Below are positions 4,157 to 30,899 of a stretch of DNA of 64,000 nucleotides, piece by piece. Position 1 is the stretch's first letter; each line of letters starts with the position of its first letter. The stretch is from Nostoc sp. LEGE 12450. GTDB taxonomy: Bacteria; Cyanobacteriota; Cyanobacteriia; Cyanobacteriales; Nostocaceae. The stretch covers positions 1 to 64,000 of the forward strand of contig NZ_JADEXU010000017.1 in assembly GCF_015206895.1 (NCBI RefSeq), written 5' to 3'. The notes beneath the pieces were generated by a model. That model searched no databases, had not been told where the DNA came from, and saw only the letters and a list, made by a program, of their open reading frames with translations. A program made the translations under genes and the position numbers.

Positions 4157-5422
4157 ATGTCAATCCGTATTGGTTACATTCTCAAACGTTATCCTCGCTA
4201 TTCTGAAACCTTTGTTGTCAATGAAATTTTGGCTCATGAAGCGGCTGGTTTAGATATTGAAATTTTTGCTTTGAGGCCACCGTGTGACACTCATTTTCAA
4301 AATATTATTTCCCAGGTGCGTGCTACCGTCACCTACATTCGTCAGCCAATTCAAGGTCGAGTGAGCCAATCCCTAAATAGTCTAACTCCCACAGCAGCAA
4401 GCTATTTTTGGGCAGAATTACAAGAAGCGAGTAAAGTTATCCCAGATTTTTGGTCAAAGTTGGCTTATGCTCAAGGTGAACAAGATAGCACCGTTTACCA
4501 AGCTGCATGGCTAGCAAGGGAAGCGCGACTCAAAGGCATCACTCATTTTCACGCTCACTTTGGCACTGTCGCAACCAGTGTAGCTCGGTTAGCATCTCAC
4601 TTCATGGGTATTCCCTACACCTTCACTGCTCATGCTAAAGACATCTTTCATGAAAGTGTTGAATTGGAAGATATGCAGCGCAAGCTTAAGGATGCTGTCA
4701 CTATCGTAACTGTCAGTGACTATAACCTCAAGTATTTGCAAAAGACTTATGGTGCAAAGCGAGTTCAACGTATTTACAATGGCTTAGATTTACGACAATT
4801 ACAATATTCTTCCCCGGTTGATCGTCCTCCATTGATTATCTCAGTCAGTCGATTAATTGAGAAGAAAGGGCTGTCTATTTTAATCGATGCTTGTGCGATT
4901 CTGAAGCGAATAAATTATGATTTCCAATGTCAAATTGTGGGAACAGGATCATTAGAACCTGTATTGCAGCAAAAAATCCAAGATTTACGGCTGCAATCTA
5001 CTGTGGAAATTGTCGGCCCACGTCCTCAAAATGATGTATTTCAATTGATGCAGGAGGCTGCTATATTTGCAGCTCCATATATTATCGGTCAAGATGGCAA
5101 TCGGGATGGTCTGCCTACAGTTTTACTCGAAGCGATGGCATTGGGAACGCCCTGTGTAAGTACAGATGTAACTGGAATTCCCGAATTAGTGCGCGATCGC
5201 CAGACTGGATTAATTGTCCCACAACATGATGCCGAACAATTAGCGATCGCACTTCAACAACTCCTTACCAATCAAGCCTTGCGAGTCAAATTGTCAACCC
5301 AAGCCAGACAATTAATTGAATCTGAGTTTGACATTCATCGCAATAGTGCAGCATTACGAGCAATATTCCATGCGGATCAACCGAATGCTGCCATGACTTT
5401 AAAAGTAGTTCAGGAGGTTTAG
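4157..5422 (+). CDS. GT4-family glycosyltransferase
   Basis: A 421-residue GT-B glycosyltransferase of the GT4 class. The N-terminal domain begins IGYILKRYPRYSETFV, typical of exopolysaccharide GT4 enzymes. The C-terminal domain has ISVSRLIEKKGL and the E-x7-E type stretch around GLPTVLLEAMALGTPCV. I chose ATG 4157 because the family's conserved sequence begins there. An upstream in-frame ATG at 4058 lies inside the preceding gene and would add 33 unrelated residues. The 52 nt between the genes contain AGGAG-like sequence but no clear Shine-Dalgarno right before 4157. Confidence 0.85.
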   Translation: MSIRIGYILKRYPRYSETFVVNEILAHEAAGLDIEIFALRPPCDTHFQNIISQVRATVTYIRQPIQGRVSQSLNSLTPTAASYFWAELQEASKVIPDFWSKLAYAQGEQDSTVYQAAWLAREARLKGITHFHAHFGTVATSVARLASHFMGIPYTFTAHAKDIFHESVELEDMQRKLKDAVTIVTVSDYNLKYLQKTYGAKRVQRIYNGLDLRQLQYSSPVDRPPLIISVSRLIEKKGLSILIDACAILKRINYDFQCQIVGTGSLEPVLQQKIQDLRLQSTVEIVGPRPQNDVFQLMQEAAIFAAPYIIGQDGNRDGLPTVLLEAMALGTPCVSTDVTGIPELVRDRQTGLIVPQHDAEQLAIALQQLLTNQALRVKLSTQARQLIESEFDIHRNSAALRAIFHADQPNAAMTLKVVQEV

Positions 5423-25133: not shown

Positions 25134-25931
25134 CTACTGCGCGGCTTGTCTGACTTGTTCGACACTCAAATCTAGCGCCTGTGCTACTTGTTCTACAGTC
25201 AACCCGGCTGCCAACATTGCTGGTACTGCTCTGAGTTTACCTTGCTCAATGCCTTGAACCTTACCTTGTTCAACACCCTCCTGAAAGGCTTCCTGATAAA
25301 ATCTGGTTTGCTTTAACTCGCTTAATCCAAACATTTCCTCCATCTCCTCCCTACTCATTGTGGGAAACTTATAAGCCAAAATAGTCTCGATAAATTGTAA
25401 TAATTGCTGCTGTTTTGGTGGTGAGTTTATCTCTGACTTAGTTCTGTCGATCAACTCTCTTGCTTGGACAATTGCGATATCGTCGGTTGCAATTACTAAT
25501 TTAGCAGTTGCAATACCAATTGGAAGCGATGCACCTTCACCTAATTCATCCAAATAAATCCGCCTGACCCGCCCACTTGTGAAAAACTCACGGTAATGTT
25601 TGATATTGCCTGTATCTACATTCCTATTTGGGTATAAAACCACAGCACCCCAGTCATTTAATGGTTGATTCTGACGGAGGTATAAACATATTTCTGCAAT
25701 TAGCCGTGAATAAATTTCCCCATCAGCTTGAAATTGTACTTCAACAAAGTAAATCTGGTTCTCGCTTCCTTGTGTCGGTAGAAACACACCATCGATTCTG
25801 AAGGCTGTTTGTTTAATTTCAACTGATGAAAATTGATAAAGGCTAGCTGATTCTGGAGGATTACCAATAAGTTCAAAAAAGATATCAGGGAATTCTTGAA
25901 ACAGCCGATAAAAAATGATGTCTGTTTTCAC
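25134..25931 (-). CDS. Rpn-family PD-(D/E)XK nuclease, DUF2887 type
   Basis: A 265-residue protein of the Rpn/putative transposase superfamily common in cyanobacteria. The nuclease core has RIDGVFLP with D47 and YFVEVQFQ with E64-x-Q66, a PD-(D/E)XK variant with Gln for Lys. A repeat-like linker GVEQGKVQGIEQGK precedes a helix-turn-helix-like tail LTVEQVAQALDLSVEQVRQ. Rpn proteins promote recombination and cleave DNA in E. coli; the role here is unknown. An XRE-like gene lies 34 nt upstream on the same strand. A broken copy of the tail follows. Confidence 0.85.
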   Translation of the reverse strand: MKTDIIFYRLFQEFPDIFFELIGNPPESASLYQFSSVEIKQTAFRIDGVFLPTQGSENQIYFVEVQFQADGEIYSRLIAEICLYLRQNQPLNDWGAVVLYPNRNVDTGNIKHYREFFTSGRVRRIYLDELGEGASLPIGIATAKLVIATDDIAIVQARELIDRTKSEINSPPKQQQLLQFIETILAYKFPTMSREEMEEMFGLSELKQTRFYQEAFQEGVEQGKVQGIEQGKLRAVPAMLAAGLTVEQVAQALDLSVEQVRQAAQ

Positions 25932-25965: not shown

Positions 25966-26463
25966 TCATGTATTACTTGATTCTTCAGAACCATCTCGTA
26001 CTTTCAGCAATTGCTCTTTTGCCATCCCTAATATACGTGATAAGGGCGCTAACAAACTATCATCAAATGCTTGTCCAGCATAAATATTATTCAGTTCGGT
26101 AGGGGATAATTTAAAGGTATCGCAGAACTTAGCAAACTCCTGGTTACTTAAGTCAAGCTCTTTTTGCCTATCTTGAAGTAAAACTGCGATCGCTCTAGTT
26201 CCATGCTTGGGACGCTCACTAGTTTTTACATATTTTTCCATTAAATAATTGACTTTTCTGGTATCGCCGCCGATTTTTTTAATTAAATCAGTACAAGCCA
26301 TTTTCAGTGCTTTCTTTAAAACTTCTTCTTCATTTAAAACTTTAATAATTTCACTTGCATATTCTGGTTTAAAAAATCCCACCAAATTACCTTGATGATA
26401 AACTGGTATATAAGGATTATTTGTTTCAAGTTGCCAATCTAAAGGCTCATTGCGTAGCGACAT
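25966..26463 (-). CDS. Hypothetical protein with XRE-like C-terminal domain
   Basis: A 165-residue protein starting at ATG 26463, with AGGGG upstream. The N-terminal part (NPYIPVYHQGNLVGFFKPEY) resembles no domain I know. The C-terminal about 60 residues (QEFAKFCDTFKLSPTELNNI...LSRILGM) have the spacing of an XRE helix-turn-helix. The gene precedes the Rpn nuclease by 34 nt on the same strand, so the two could be co-transcribed. A regulatory or antitoxin-like job is possible but unproven. Confidence 0.6.
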   Translation of the reverse strand: MSLRNEPLDWQLETNNPYIPVYHQGNLVGFFKPEYASEIIKVLNEEEVLKKALKMACTDLIKKIGGDTRKVNYLMEKYVKTSERPKHGTRAIAVLLQDRQKELDLSNQEFAKFCDTFKLSPTELNNIYAGQAFDDSLLAPLSRILGMAKEQLLKVRDGSEESSNT

Positions 26464-26818
26464 AGCTGCACCCCTAAATATTTTAAGATTGCACCATTTT
26501 AAAACCATTTATTCCTTAACTGCCAGTAAAATACCCTAGCACTGGCAATTAGAAATCGCAGCTATACAGACAAAACCCATCTCCGTGGGTTTCAACTTGC
26601 TGGAGTCCACGCAGACGGACTTAGTTTGTGCAGCCATTACCTATTTCTAGCAGAACCTTTAACTCAGCCAAAATTAGCGATCGCCTTGCTCATCACCAAA
26701 TGGCTAAAAGCTTACCAGAGAAGGGTTTGGTAGTGTTGTGAGGCTGTTGTTAGATATTTAAACATAATGGGCATACTGTAAATATCAAGTAAGTAAGCAT
26801 CGAAACAGGGTAAACAGT
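26464..26818. other. Divergent spacer with small inverted repeats
   Basis: No gene is visible. It contains TGCCAGT/ACTGGCA (26521-26527 with 26541-26547) and AAACCCA/TGGGTTT (26573-26579 with 26586-26592, 6-nt loop), followed by text resembling a dispersed Nostoc repeat (GAGTCCACGCAGACGGACTT). It separates the XRE/Rpn pair from the GTPase gene and presumably holds the GTPase promoter. Confidence 0.5.
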
Positions 26819-28849
26819 ATGTTGACGATAACGTGGCAAGAAGAGATTGCATCCTTGAAACAAGATTTGAGCAAGGAAATAAATAAAATTTCAGGTCATT
26901 CTGAGATTAATATAGCTAATCATATTTGTATTAATAACCTTAAATCCAAGCTAGAACGGTTAAATGAAATTGAAAAAATTCTTAGTATAGAAAAATATAA
27001 AATTGTTTTCATCGGTACTATTGGTCAAGGGAAGACGACAGCTATTTGTCACCTTTTTAATTTAATAAGCGACTTCAATATTTCTAAGACTATTGGTGGT
27101 AAAACAAAAGATGTAATCGAAACTAAAGAGTTATTATCAACGGGTGCAGGGAGAACTACTATATGTGAAGTAAATGTCAAACCATCTGAAAAAACTTACA
27201 TAGAGATAGAGCCTTATACAGTTGATGAAATGGAAAATATTATTTTTGAATTTTGCGACTATATTGCAAATAAAGATAATACTCAACCAGATCAGAAGAT
27301 AATTATTTCTAAAGAACTTGAAAGGGCTGTTAGGAATATTATAGAAATGAAGTTACGCTATAAAACAATTTATGATGGGGATAAGAAGAAAACTGAAATA
27401 ATTGATCCTGCCAAGGAAGAATTTGAGAAACTAGGGTTAGATGAACTAAAAAAGTTGGCATTGAATAATGCAAAGCTTGAATGTCGAACTACCAATAGAA
27501 TTGAATTTGATAATCAAAAAAGTGAGCAAGAATGGATCAAAAATACCTTCGCTGCAATCAATAATGTCGAGTTAAAAGAGTTTGCTATTCCAAGAGAAAT
27601 ATATCTTTCTGTGAGCTATAATGTTCTATCTGGCTCAAACTTGTCTCAGTTCGATTCAGTTGTGGATACTAAAGGACTTGATGAAAATCCAATTCGTCAA
27701 GACTTGCAGAAATATATTGAGAATCAGGATACCATCTGCCTCTTTGTAACTCCCTTTTCTAATGCTCCTGAAGCTAATATTACTAAATTAATAGGTTATC
27801 ACCTTACATCTAAATCCAAAGATTTTCATCATAGATTCGTAACTTTAGTATTACCTCACAAAAATGAACCTGAAAAAGTGAATGGATGTGATGGCGATTA
27901 TGATACAGGAATTCAAATCAGAAAAGAAGAAGTTCAAGCTACATTCAGGAGTTTGAATTTAGATTTTTTCTTAGAAAACATTTTGTTCTATGATGCTTTG
28001 AGGTACTACCGTGATGATATATTCAAGTTAAATGAAATTTACGATAAAGAAGATGTACAGGCAGATAAAAATGAATTTATCGAAGCTATCGCGGCTGTAG
28101 TAGAACGTAGGCGAAATATTTTATTGGACGAAATAAAGAATATCCAAGAAAACTTTACAAAAATAAAAAATGGTGATGCTTTGACAGGGGCAGAAATCAA
28201 GGCAATTGAAAATGCTATTAAGAAGATAAAGGATTTACGGGATTTAAGTAAAAGAGTACAAAGTTTTAATTATAAAGACCAAGGTACAGATAAAGGTTTT
28301 GTTACTAAATATGTTGAAGATTATCGTATCCATCCTAAGGCATGGAACACTAAACATGCTATCCATAGAAACTTCGGTTACTATGATCCAAAGAATATAG
28401 ATATATATTACGATATGAGGGTTATTGCTGAGGGAAGAAATGAAGATGAAATGTTGAAGAAGTTTACCAAAGAACTAAAACAAGAATTAGAAAATATCCT
28501 TAATGAGCTTACATCTGCAAATGAATCTTTAAAAACATTTATCCCTGAATTAGTCATACAATTCAACTCATTTTATGACAATTTTATAAGTGAAGTAGGT
28601 GTAGAAATCCAATATGAAGCTATAAGAAAATTATCACCTCAAAGTGAAGATTCTGAATTTTGGACGGCTCTAATTAATGAGAAAGGCAAGGTACAGCTTC
28701 CAGGTGAAACCTATACAAAGAACGTATGTAAGACATTGAAGCACGAACTTGAAAGTGAGCAAAGCTTAAATACATTTTTAGAGATTAAAGCAGGACAGTA
28801 TTGGGCAGAATTAGTTACTAAAATCTTAAGCTTTTTCGGAGAAAAATAG
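26819..28849 (+). CDS. Large P-loop GTPase of unassigned family
   Basis: A 676-residue, AT-rich gene. A helical N-terminus (about 1-58) precedes G1 GTIGQGKT at 66-73. A glycine/threonine segment STGAGRTTICEV near 110-121 could be switch I. The G3 motif DTKG lies at 283-286, so about 160 mostly helical residues are inserted between switch I and G3. A canonical NKxD is not obvious; VLPHKNEPEKV may substitute. The remaining about 300 residues are charged and predicted helical, with no clear transmembrane segment. The layout recalls dynamin-like GTPases, but I cannot name the family. The partner nuclease follows 91 nt downstream. Confidence 0.7.
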   Translation: MLTITWQEEIASLKQDLSKEINKISGHSEINIANHICINNLKSKLERLNEIEKILSIEKYKIVFIGTIGQGKTTAICHLFNLISDFNISKTIGGKTKDVIETKELLSTGAGRTTICEVNVKPSEKTYIEIEPYTVDEMENIIFEFCDYIANKDNTQPDQKIIISKELERAVRNIIEMKLRYKTIYDGDKKKTEIIDPAKEEFEKLGLDELKKLALNNAKLECRTTNRIEFDNQKSEQEWIKNTFAAINNVELKEFAIPREIYLSVSYNVLSGSNLSQFDSVVDTKGLDENPIRQDLQKYIENQDTICLFVTPFSNAPEANITKLIGYHLTSKSKDFHHRFVTLVLPHKNEPEKVNGCDGDYDTGIQIRKEEVQATFRSLNLDFFLENILFYDALRYYRDDIFKLNEIYDKEDVQADKNEFIEAIAAVVERRRNILLDEIKNIQENFTKIKNGDALTGAEIKAIENAIKKIKDLRDLSKRVQSFNYKDQGTDKGFVTKYVEDYRIHPKAWNTKHAIHRNFGYYDPKNIDIYYDMRVIAEGRNEDEMLKKFTKELKQELENILNELTSANESLKTFIPELVIQFNSFYDNFISEVGVEIQYEAIRKLSPQSEDSEFWTALINEKGKVQLPGETYTKNVCKTLKHELESEQSLNTFLEIKAGQYWAELVTKILSFFGEK

Positions 28850-28885
28850 ACAGAAAGCAATTTTAAATTGCATGGTAAATAATAA

Positions 28886-28908
28886 GGGATGCAATAAAAT
28901 TGCGTCCC
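28886..28908 (+). terminator. Hairpin between GTPase and nuclease genes
   Basis: GGGATGCAAT (28886-28895) pairs with ATTGCGTCCC (28899-28908), 10 bp with one G-U pair and a 3-nt loop. It may attenuate or process a shared transcript. A T-run does not follow. Confidence 0.45.
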
Positions 28909-28940
28909 GATAACCAGTTGATAAATAAACCTAACTATCT

Positions 28941-29678
28941 ATGACTAGCTTAAGTGAAGAAATATCTAGAAAACTAAATATATATAAGAGAAACTATGCA
29001 GAATATACAAAGTGTTTGATTAAAGGCAGGGAAATTGTTCTAGATGGACGACCAGAAGAAAAAGTTAGACAATTGTTTATCTACTTTTTGGTAAATGAAA
29101 GTGGGTTATTTCCAGGCAAAATTGATATCAAAGTGGAATGTGATTATCATGATATAGAATTGTATAAAACTGTACAAAATGAATATTTTAAACCATATTC
29201 TCCTCCTCTAATGATTGTGGAAGTCAAGCGAGAAGAAGAAAACTTACGGAATCATGAGAAGCAGATTGAAAGATACCTCAAAAAATCTTGTTCTGAGATT
29301 GGTATTTTATACAATTATCACCAAGTTATTGCTTATCTCAAAAAAGATGGAGTATTTATGAGTAATACTCTTGATAATCTTGAAGATATACCAGCTTTAA
29401 TCTTGCAAAGTTCTAATAAATTAGATAAAAATATACTCGAATTTGAAAAAGCTGTAAATGGAAGTTTTGATAGCTTCGTTTATCTTGCTAATAAATACGG
29501 AAAATATAAACTTAACAGAATAGTTTTCAGACTTAAAGGTGAGCAGTTACCAATAGTAGGATCTTTCTTCAAATTTAAAGAAAATAAGCTGTACTACAAT
29601 ATATATGTTCAAGATGTTCAAAAACAGCAAAGCTGTGATTTTCAAAATTTTGAAAAGCTAGTTTCTATTATTTATTGA
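28941..29678 (+). CDS. PD-(D/E)XK nuclease, HsdR N-domain-like
   Basis: A 245-residue protein. GRPEEKVRQLFIYFLVNE (36-53) resembles the leading helix of HsdR N-terminal domains; MIVEVKREEEN carries the catalytic E94-x-K96, and KQIERYL has the Q-x3-Y motif (Q108, Y112) seen in type I restriction nucleases. The first acidic residue is probably among D68/D71, but this is unclear. No helicase domain is attached. It starts at ATG 28941, 91 nt after the GTPase on the same strand, with equally low GC. A joint system, perhaps in defence, is inference. Confidence 0.72.
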   Translation: MTSLSEEISRKLNIYKRNYAEYTKCLIKGREIVLDGRPEEKVRQLFIYFLVNESGLFPGKIDIKVECDYHDIELYKTVQNEYFKPYSPPLMIVEVKREEENLRNHEKQIERYLKKSCSEIGILYNYHQVIAYLKKDGVFMSNTLDNLEDIPALILQSSNKLDKNILEFEKAVNGSFDSFVYLANKYGKYKLNRIVFRLKGEQLPIVGSFFKFKENKLYYNIYVQDVQKQQSCDFQNFEKLVSIIY

Positions 29679-29729: not shown

Positions 29730-29870
29730 TTATCCTTCCCAGTCTTGACGAGTATCGCACAGAAAATTGTCTGCGATCGCATCATCAAATAAATAGGGGC
29801 AATGCTCTGGAAAAATTCGTAATAGTAAGTTAGTTTCTTGTAGCTCGAAATCAACTAGCCTTCGCTTCAT
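29730..29870 (-). CDS. Small hypothetical ORF overlapping the XRE gene
   Basis: 46 residues from ATG 29870, overlapping the last 20 nt of the XRE gene in another frame, with CGGGG upstream. The sequence (RRLVDFELQETNLLLRIFPE...) is acidic and aromatic near its end and resembles nothing I know. The overlap suggests translational coupling, as in toxin-antitoxin pairs, but the ORF may be spurious. Confidence 0.35.
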   Translation of the reverse strand: MKRRLVDFELQETNLLLRIFPEHCPYLFDDAIADNFLCDTRQDWEG

Positions 29871-30213
29871 CCCCGGATGCTTCAGCCACAGCAGCCAATC
29901 TATCTGCCGCAGCTTGGACGATTTGAGCAACTTGGCTAAGAGGCATGTGCTGGATTTGTCTAAGAATCAGACTCAAATCTGAGGTTTCTGGAATTGGCTT
30001 GCCATCAATGCAGCTGATTAACTCTTCCATTGTGTAGCCTGCTTTCGATGCGATTCGAGCCAAATTTTCTGTATCTGGCACCTTCACACCTTTTTCCCAC
30101 ATCTGAACAGCAGTAGCAGATACCCCCAAAAGCTTACCAAATGCTCGCTGACTCATTGAACCGCGAGCTAGTTTAATGATTTCAATCAGTTTTTGTTTGC
30201 TTTCGATCTTCAC
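29851..30213 (-). CDS. XRE-family transcriptional regulator
   Basis: 120 residues from GTG 30213. The helix-turn-helix covers about 14-60 (SQRAFGKLLGVSATAVQMWEKGVKVPDTENLARIASKAGY), followed by a linker and an amphipathic Ala-rich tail (SQVAQIVQAAADRLAAVAEA) likely to dimerise. Two AAGTnnACTT palindromes spaced 20 nt lie 26-60 nt upstream of the start, a good candidate for self-repression. No Shine-Dalgarno is visible, and a TATATA lies close to the start, so a leaderless transcript is possible. Its genetic partner is unknown. Confidence 0.85.
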   Translation of the reverse strand: MKIESKQKLIEIIKLARGSMSQRAFGKLLGVSATAVQMWEKGVKVPDTENLARIASKAGYTMEELISCIDGKPIPETSDLSLILRQIQHMPLSQVAQIVQAAADRLAAVAEASGDEAKAS

Positions 30214-30452: not shown

Positions 30453-30899
30453 ATGTTTCGCAAGCCACGCAAAATTAACCAATATCGCCGCAAAGGTAAA
30501 AACCTTATAGCCACTAATAAAATTAAACCAGAACTGTGGAACATTTCTGAGGCAGAAACCAAAGAAGCTTTAAAAGTTAAAGGCTACGATGTTAAGCAAA
30601 TCAAAAAAATCCACATTCTGAAGCATCAAGTGTGTATTTCCTACTGGGATGTAAAAGGCAATATATGCAGCAGCTTTTTTAGCTACCGGATTTTTGCACG
30701 TTGGCAAGAAGAAGTGGAAAAGCTAATTTATACCTGTGAAACCCTGAAGGAATGGGCGAAGTTAAATTACGTTATGAAGTACGAATTTGCCTATTACCAT
30801 TATCCCAGTGAAATAGAAGATACACTCCACGCAATATTAGAAAACCACCTGTCTGTGTTAAAACCAACAGTACAACAAGTGGTTTTACAGGATATTTAA
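30453..30899 (+). CDS. Hypothetical protein
   Basis: 148 residues from ATG 30453. The N-terminus is strongly basic (MFRKPRKINQYRRKGKN), the rest mixed with several aromatic residues (AKLNYVMKYEFAYYHYPSE). I recognise no domain or signal peptide. It is divergent from the XRE gene and convergent with prfA, whose stop is 9 nt away. Its coding status rests on length and on ordinary composition. Confidence 0.6.
   Translation: MFRKPRKINQYRRKGKNLIATNKIKPELWNISEAETKEALKVKGYDVKQIKKIHILKHQVCISYWDVKGNICSSFFSYRIFARWQEEVEKLIYTCETLKEWAKLNYVMKYEFAYYHYPSEIEDTLHAILENHLSVLKPTVQQVVLQDI

Follow-up and report, generated by a model that had tools for sequence, protein, structure and literature searches.

Introduction

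Defence by a nucleoside triphosphatase (NTPase) acting together with a nuclease is known from McrBC and SspE. In McrBC and type IV restriction, a GTP-dependent protein and a PD-(D/E)XK nuclease are encoded by two genes, and McrB is an AAA+ protein. In SspE and GmrSD, DNA cleavage is reported to be licensed by hydrolysis of a nucleoside triphosphate (NTP) (PMC13251355). Dynamin-like proteins are counted as possible defence components in LeoABC and among the "dynamins" of DefenseFinder (PMC4159319, PMC12595487), and Bacillus DynA is described as delaying phage lysis at the membrane (PMC8844932). Here we analyze a window of 64,000 nucleotides from the cyanobacterium Nostoc sp. LEGE 12450 (contig NZ_JADEXU010000017.1, positions 1 to 64,000 of the forward strand; genome of 8.8 Mb), in which the gene for a P-loop GTPase that is dynamin-like by its predicted fold (26819–28849, plus strand, 676 residues) is followed by the gene for a stand-alone PD-(D/E)XK nuclease of the HsdR_N type (28941–29678, plus strand, 245 residues).

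That the GTPase and the nuclease form a real two-gene unit is well supported, and we put at about one half the probability that this unit is a mobile defence module in which the dynamin-like NTPase would license the nuclease. A dynamin-like NTPase in such an arrangement would be new within the literature searched.

An earlier note, drawn from the letters of this DNA alone, had proposed the pair as an undescribed GTPase–nuclease system. Both open reading frames (ORFs) lie where it placed them, co-directional on the plus strand and separated by an intercistronic stretch of 91 nucleotides (28850–28940, plus strand). The motifs that it named are also present: GTIGQGKT at residues 66–73 (P-loop, codons 27014–27037), DTKG at 283–286 (G3, codons 27665–27676) and, in the nuclease, E-V-K at 94–96 (codons 29220–29228) together with Q108 and Y112, both invariant in our alignment. 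The pair is AT-rich, as claimed, with a G+C content of 0.315–0.337 in 2-kb windows versus 0.42–0.47 a few kilobases to both sides.

Pairing and distribution of the two genes

Across 217 Nostocaceae genomes, every full-length nuclease (35/35, counting matches of at least 338 bits; the next match scores 216 bits) adjoins the GTPase or what is left of it. The near-full-length, stop-free GTPases number 29, and 27 of them are followed on the same strand, after 87–171 nucleotides, by the nuclease. The two exceptions, at loci L118 and L119 (locus numbers are our own labels), are of a divergent solo type that is 35% identical to the window GTPase. Three Nostocaceae GTPases fused to a helix-turn-helix (HTH) domain stand outside the 29, and with these counted in the pairing becomes 27/32; the figures use 47 of 60 GTPase matches, the 13 omitted being second pieces of listed loci or short remnants. 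The survey of adjacency that the earlier note had suggested finds the genes nearly always together, and its idea of an undescribed GTPase–nuclease system survives both this survey and the search for a housekeeping family described below.

Among 386 cyanobacterial genomes, the GTPase profile matches eight, the eighth match being a 28-residue fragment, and the nuclease (E ≤ 1e-15) occurs in seven, all of them among the eight GTPase-positive ones. A broader GTPase profile reaches 14 of the 386, yet its six additional matches cover the HTH part alone. The pair is also found on a Pseudanabaena plasmid (L024), where the genes abut and the two proteins are 42% and 31% identical to those of the window.

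We examined 42 loci for flanking gene clusters. The 37 that carry both genes occupy 7–12 separate neighbourhoods, the number being set by how strictly sharing is defined, and the only clusters common to all 37 are those of the GTPase and the nuclease. Since further loci retain mere scraps of both genes, the unit appears to have been both gained and lost. Judged from these sequence comparisons, the pair is a travelling unit that comes and goes at many sites. A housekeeping GTPase with a chance neighbour could be read from the commonest site of the pair, site A, which adjoins prfA and ribosomal protein genes; this explanation is in the main refuted by the patchy presence of the GTPase (8/386 cyanobacterial and 45/217 Nostocaceae genomes, the latter counting remnants, solo and HTH types) and by its many decayed copies at many sites, and we consider it very improbable.

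Selection and decay

Among 27 intact loci, the median ratio of nonsynonymous (dN) to synonymous (dS) substitution rates is 0.23 for the GTPase and 0.30 for the nuclease (345 usable of 351 pairwise comparisons), and the dN values of the two genes correlate with r 0.89 over the 351 pairs. By these ratios, both genes are under purifying selection.

The manner in which the unit decays bears on a toxin–antitoxin or abortive-infection arrangement, in which a toxic nuclease would be restrained by the GTPase until infection. Two co-directional genes of which one encodes a nuclease fit such an arrangement, and expression of the nuclease could be kept low by the hairpin that separates them. At 8 of the 35 nuclease loci, however, a broken or truncated GTPase stands beside a nuclease that is open and has all six of its conserved residues, and the number of intact paired-clade GTPases without a nuclease is zero. 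An 8:0 bias is expected about 8% of the time from gene length alone (676 versus 245 codons), some of the breaks are possibly assembly errors, and the nucleases of L084 and L085 are identical and hence not independent; the decay pattern speaks no more than faintly against a nuclease that would be lethal unless restrained. We judge the toxin–antitoxin explanation to be rather unlikely. At L092, a 490-residue ORF, perhaps a transposase, splits the GTPase gene.

A predicted dynamin-like fold for the GTPase

Residues G66, G71, K72, T114, D283 and G286 are invariant in the 16 aligned members of the GTPase family, and the P-loop, the switch-I threonine and the G3 DxxG of the dynamin superfamily are all present. 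The long insertion before G3 to which the earlier note had drawn attention is a family trait, with a P-loop-to-G3 distance of 190–228 residues in 16/16 members including the window protein. Because a dynamin of the source genome itself (L132) has a distance of 175 residues, this long stretch is not odd by itself, and the bacterial dynamin-like protein SynDLP is also said to possess an enlarged GTPase domain (PMC10104851).

Neither Pfam nor NCBIfam holds a family that matches the window GTPase above its cut-off, which agrees with the earlier note in so far as it called the protein unassigned and speaks against a known housekeeping family; PADLOC gives no match, and PHROGs, used without cut-offs, gives weak matches with a best E-value of 0.018. 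A match to ParM_N (PF21523; E 3e-4, below cut-off) is confined to residues 535–606 and absent from six relatives. The predicted structure takes the assignment further. A model built from 13 sequences, with a predicted local distance difference test score (pLDDT) of 76.8 and a predicted template modelling score (pTM) of 0.61, was compared with the PDB by Foldseek, and all 40 chains matched at E ≤ 0.001 belong to the dynamin superfamily, among them BDLP (E 4.5e-8, probability 1.0, template modelling (TM) score 0.26), SynDLP, the Campylobacter pair, mitofusins, Fzo1, IniA, Mx proteins and dynamin. Against viral models, the same search gives three matches at E ≤ 0.001, all dynamins. The predicted model agrees with the dynamin architecture of a GTPase domain followed by a helical neck and trunk. 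Overall, the structure search that the earlier note had suggested points to a GTPase that is dynamin-like by predicted fold, with its nucleotide putative. A profile–profile comparison with four dynamins of the source genome (three of them partial) aligned the P-loop region only (74 columns, probability 92); it was set aside as support, being confined to the P-loop and not specific.

The family departs from full dynamin membership in having no hydrophobic paddle: the highest mean hydrophobicity over 19 residues in nine members is 1.38, and in five of the nine the peak falls at the P-loop. This bears on the possibility of a membrane-remodelling dynamin that works with a nuclease to handle DNA at the membrane, as in uptake or in the entry of plasmid or phage DNA. 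The closest folds do include membrane dynamins, the lipid binding of SynDLP is described as having a strong electrostatic component, so that a missing paddle is no exclusion (PMC10104851), and the effect of DynA on phage lysis is likewise placed at the membrane (PMC8844932). Against this, none of the nine members has a strongly hydrophobic segment, and the XRE-type HTH of relatives suggests contact with DNA; we regard a membrane role as quite unlikely.

The nuclease

The nuclease is matched by HsdR_N (PF13588) above cut-off (E 3.1e-9). Both the D-x(n)-(D/E)-x-K core and the Q-x3-Y motif are present, and E39, D71, E94, K96, Q108 and Y112 are identical in all 35 Nostocaceae nucleases. The C-terminal part (residues ~150–245) is conserved beyond the Pfam match and is a candidate docking part for the GTPase. 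Among 42 profile candidates from viral contigs, none is a relative of the nuclease.

A covarying hairpin between the genes

The hairpin that the earlier note had placed near the pair lies between the two genes (28886–28908, plus strand). In all 27 intact Nostocaceae pairs such a hairpin starts 32–43 nucleotides past the GTPase stop codon, and when each pair's own gap is shuffled 100 times, the score is reached no more than four times for 25 of the 27, but 38 and 26 times for L090 and L093. In an alignment of 26 gaps, which omits L107 (gap of 171 nucleotides, hairpin present), the stem of ten pairs shows 90.7% standard pairing and six pairs changed on both sides, the outermost pair failing in 12 of 26. 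The covariation score of 0.297 is reached by 0 of 500 shuffles, which ignore kinship among the sequences, and by no slid version of the stem. G-U pairs occur at two stem positions, in 8 and 10 of the 26 sequences, and favor an RNA of the sense strand over a DNA palindrome.

Rfam holds no match, and a known RNA family was rejected on that ground. Nor does the hairpin appear to be a dispersed repeat: a search of the genome with the window's form at up to three mismatches, which more divergent copies would escape, finds one other match, at three mismatches, and no further copy within two. A two-state attenuator was set aside because the alternative pairing lacks covariation, and an intrinsic terminator because no U-tract, judged by eye, directly follows the hairpin. 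A part for the hairpin in balancing the amounts of the two proteins is a guess. The abutting genes of the Pseudanabaena plasmid leave no room for one. About 67 nucleotides after the stop of the solo GTPase at L118 there is a strong hairpin of unrelated sequence, and behind the GTPases of L119, L121 and L123 no clear hairpin is seen.

HTH-fused and solo relatives

The wider GTPase family includes HTH-fused relatives of ~700–736 residues on plasmids (for example L025:5647-7782, L026:1625-3835, L027:5653-7776, L029:3149-5329 and L030:5584-7779), in three Nostocaceae genomes (L121–L123) and on two viral contigs (L031:7644-9815 and L032:6912-9101). Plasmid records carrying this form number 18 of 72,556, some of them near-identical. 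The N-terminal HTH, which is of the XRE type, was recognized by Pfam in five relatives (one below cut-off); a profile of these five finds it in 11 of 11 others (L031, L032, L121–L123 and L142–L147) and does not match the window GTPase, L024, L118 or L119. In an unrooted FastTree phylogeny, the paired clade, Pseudanabaena included, clusters with the solo GTPases and stands well apart from the HTH forms, so that nuclease pairing probably arose once. On viral contigs, the GTPase profiles gave two relatives among 80 candidates and at least one among the best 600; the window GTPase and one HTH form found no relative in phage records, and E. coli genomes gave no match at the DNA level for the HTH gene of Citrobacter. 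An HTH-less relative split over two frames (L129:1681-3466), with a phage integrase alongside (4207-4881), looks like prophage cargo. Annotation calls the HTH-fused relatives XRE or HTH regulators, and known defence genes are often close by.

A profile scan places defence genes near HTH-fused relatives in 7 of 11 different annotated regions of proteobacterial plasmids (L148, which has no annotation, and L149, which encodes the same protein as L029, are excluded). Septu PtuAB lies downstream at L025; a HamA gene of Hachiman is divergent from the GTPase gene at L143, where HamB was not looked for; GajA/GajB-like genes of Gabija lie upstream at L144; a type IV HNH enzyme is nearby at L030; and a DpdB-like protein is encoded 1.8 kb away at L147. 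HipA genes are annotated at L145 and L146, with HipA_C confirmed for one and no PADLOC match, and annotation gives no defence gene at L026 or L027. On the viral contig L031, HsdM is next to the relative. On two sphingomonad plasmids, both among the seven regions, a GmrSD_N protein is encoded 19–28 nucleotides downstream of the HTH-GTPase (L029:5358-7265 and L142:6240-8144), possibly as a second type of pair. In 10-kb regions elsewhere on eight of these plasmids, genes for restriction–modification (R-M), Septu, Hachiman, Gabija, GmrSD or HipA were annotated in 0 of 8, the test loci on the same plasmids scoring 5/8 by profile and 7/8 with HipA; a non-specific endonuclease, a general methyltransferase and, at the edge, an antitoxin gene turn up in single control regions.

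Uma2 nucleases adjoin solo or HTH-fused GTPases at L118 (4345-4926) and L121 (8049-8756), both by profile, and at L122 (4037-4804), by eye. Uma2 genes are common in these Nostocaceae genomes, and for that reason we did not adopt them as partners.

These relatives are the ground for an unlikely alternative, namely that the GTPase alone is the defence protein, the nuclease is an accessory effector, and the family recruits other nucleases or works on its own. Beside the 21 HTH-fused and solo loci, tblastn with two queries found no nuclease relative (best E 0.063, at L119 and far from the GTPase), and the sphingomonad plasmids carry the GmrSD_N protein instead. Yet the only nuclease-less GTPases among the 29 of the Nostocaceae are the two of the divergent solo type, and the paired clade seems to need its nuclease.

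Proposed function

We propose that the pair works as a defence module, the likely defence role being read from the gene neighbourhoods of the wider family and the licensing step from analogy with SspE and McrBC. The dynamin-like NTPase, probably soluble, would sense a structure of the invader (DNA, nucleoprotein or an assembly) and assemble on it; nucleotide binding or hydrolysis would then license cleavage of nucleic acid by the HsdR_N-type nuclease, and the intergenic RNA hairpin would probably set the ratio of the two proteins. Contact between the proteins, control of the nuclease by NTP, the solubility of the GTPase and the role of the hairpin are all things that we infer. More tentatively, the family as a whole may consist of non-membrane sensors or switches of DNA nucleases within the dynamin superfamily, that is, a prokaryotic, Mx-like antiviral family with HTH-fused singles on proteobacterial plasmids and a cyanobacterial form coupled to HsdR_N.

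Several observations weigh against this proposal. As the earlier note had remarked, there is no ordinary NKxD: the G4 motif N/TKxD is missing at the aligned place in 16/16 members, for which reason GTP is only a putative nucleotide. A text search past G3 finds a single TKKD, at position 554 of L119, which is C-terminal and far from G4. Sequence profiles do not link the GTPase to dynamins, Dynamin_N (PF00350) failing to match the window protein at E ≤ 1 and reaching the relative L030 below cut-off only (E 0.047). The TM-scores to the 40 dynamin chains are low (0.17–0.43), a result that differently angled domains would be expected to give. Modelling of the nuclease gave a poor result (pLDDT 68.5), and Foldseek returns nothing for it at E ≤ 0.001, HsdR (3h1t) ranking 22nd at E 0.14. 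Coupling to such a nuclease is, going by the sequence searches, not general to the GTPase family, since the 21 HTH-fused and solo loci are without it. The control regions of the plasmids are weak, being judged from annotation only in gene tables of 3–11 features each. The dynamins predicted by DefenseFinder in another genomic island are reported to have given no protection from the phages tested (PMC12595487).

The surroundings of the paired form count on the same side. In addition to the prfA and ribosomal-protein genes of site A, the neighbouring genes at L082, L100, L103 and L107 encode a histidine kinase and CobW, FtsW-type and transporter proteins. Of ten neighbours scanned singly, one matched PADLOC at E ≤ 1e-10. 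At E ≤ 1e-5, an uncontrolled scan of 97 flank proteins (of 104) from 13 loci gave matches to 186 PADLOC families, of which the 25 listed mostly had one protein apiece. Individual pairs do have defence neighbours: a HindVP-type R-M system adjoins the pair at L081, and the Pseudanabaena plasmid has a GajB-like UvrD helicase and, by annotation, a MazF-type gene nearby. Neighbourhoods nevertheless give no general support to the paired form as a resident of defence islands. The defence idea of the earlier note gains from the neighbourhoods of the wider family but not from those of the paired form, and defence is a role that we infer.

If the proposal holds, plasmid proteins of ~700 residues that are annotated, if at all, as transcriptional regulators on account of their HTH domain would gain a suggested function, and two concrete genes are named as candidates for phage assays.

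The insertion site in the window

The earlier note had listed an XRE regulator and an Rpn nuclease as flanking genes. Both are present, the XRE gene at 29851–30213 (minus strand) and a DUF2887 gene at 25134–25931 (minus strand; E 6e-83), "Rpn" being the label of a DUF2887 gene in the Pseudanabaena plasmid record, but both are tied to the insertion site and not to the unit. The XRE cluster occurs at 14 of the 42 loci, every one at a single insertion site, and the DUF2887 cluster at 13, of which 12 are at that XRE-bearing site and one is the Pseudanabaena plasmid; the two genes were rejected as parts of the unit because their clusters are confined almost wholly to one insertion site. On the Pseudanabaena plasmid, the DUF2887 gene (L024:4386-5312) lies two genes upstream of the start of the pair. 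Such genes near pairs at two sites may simply be common. Also outside the unit is a gene for a 180-residue protein without a family (25966–26508, minus strand), conserved at this insertion site in 14 loci; a 148-residue protein without a family (30453–30899) is kept there in 12.

Comparison with known systems

Among the matches listed from open-licence PMC papers, none describes such a pair or family, and the main texts of two papers on conflict systems of multicellular bacteria do not contain the word dynamin (PMC7159879, PMC8195603); the two-gene unit is probably undescribed, a novelty that we treat as provisional.

The nuclease shares with the HsdR_N domain (PF13588) the core residues E39, D71, E94-x-K96 and Q108-x3-Y112, and differs from it in standing alone, with no helicase, an extra conserved C-terminal part and a GTPase as partner. 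McrBC resembles the pair as a GTP-dependent protein with a nuclease; McrB is of the AAA+ class, whereas the window GTPase matches no AAA+ family above cut-off (AAA_22 at E 0.071 only). SspE and GmrSD are like the pair in the proposed logic, and a GmrSD_N gene closely follows the genes of two HTH relatives, but SspE and GmrSD employ another NTPase family and another nuclease class, and GmrSD_N (DUF262) has no match within the pair. LeoABC and the DefenseFinder dynamins share with the GTPase a dynamin-like character and a possible place in defence (PMC4159319, PMC12595487); the PADLOC profiles of LeoA and LeoBC do not match the window GTPase at E ≤ 1, and the Pseudanabaena relative reaches only E 0.032.

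The bacterial dynamin-like proteins (NpBDLP, SynDLP, the Campylobacter pair and IniA) and Mx are like the GTPase in predicted fold and have the same P-loop, switch-I threonine and DxxG. Unlike dynamins, the window GTPase has no NKxD, no Dynamin_N match and no hydrophobic paddle, and it has a nuclease partner; unlike dynamin-like proteins, its relatives carry an N-terminal XRE HTH. If our reading of the pair is right, it would connect the immunity of bacteria with the Mx dynamins by which animals act against viruses.

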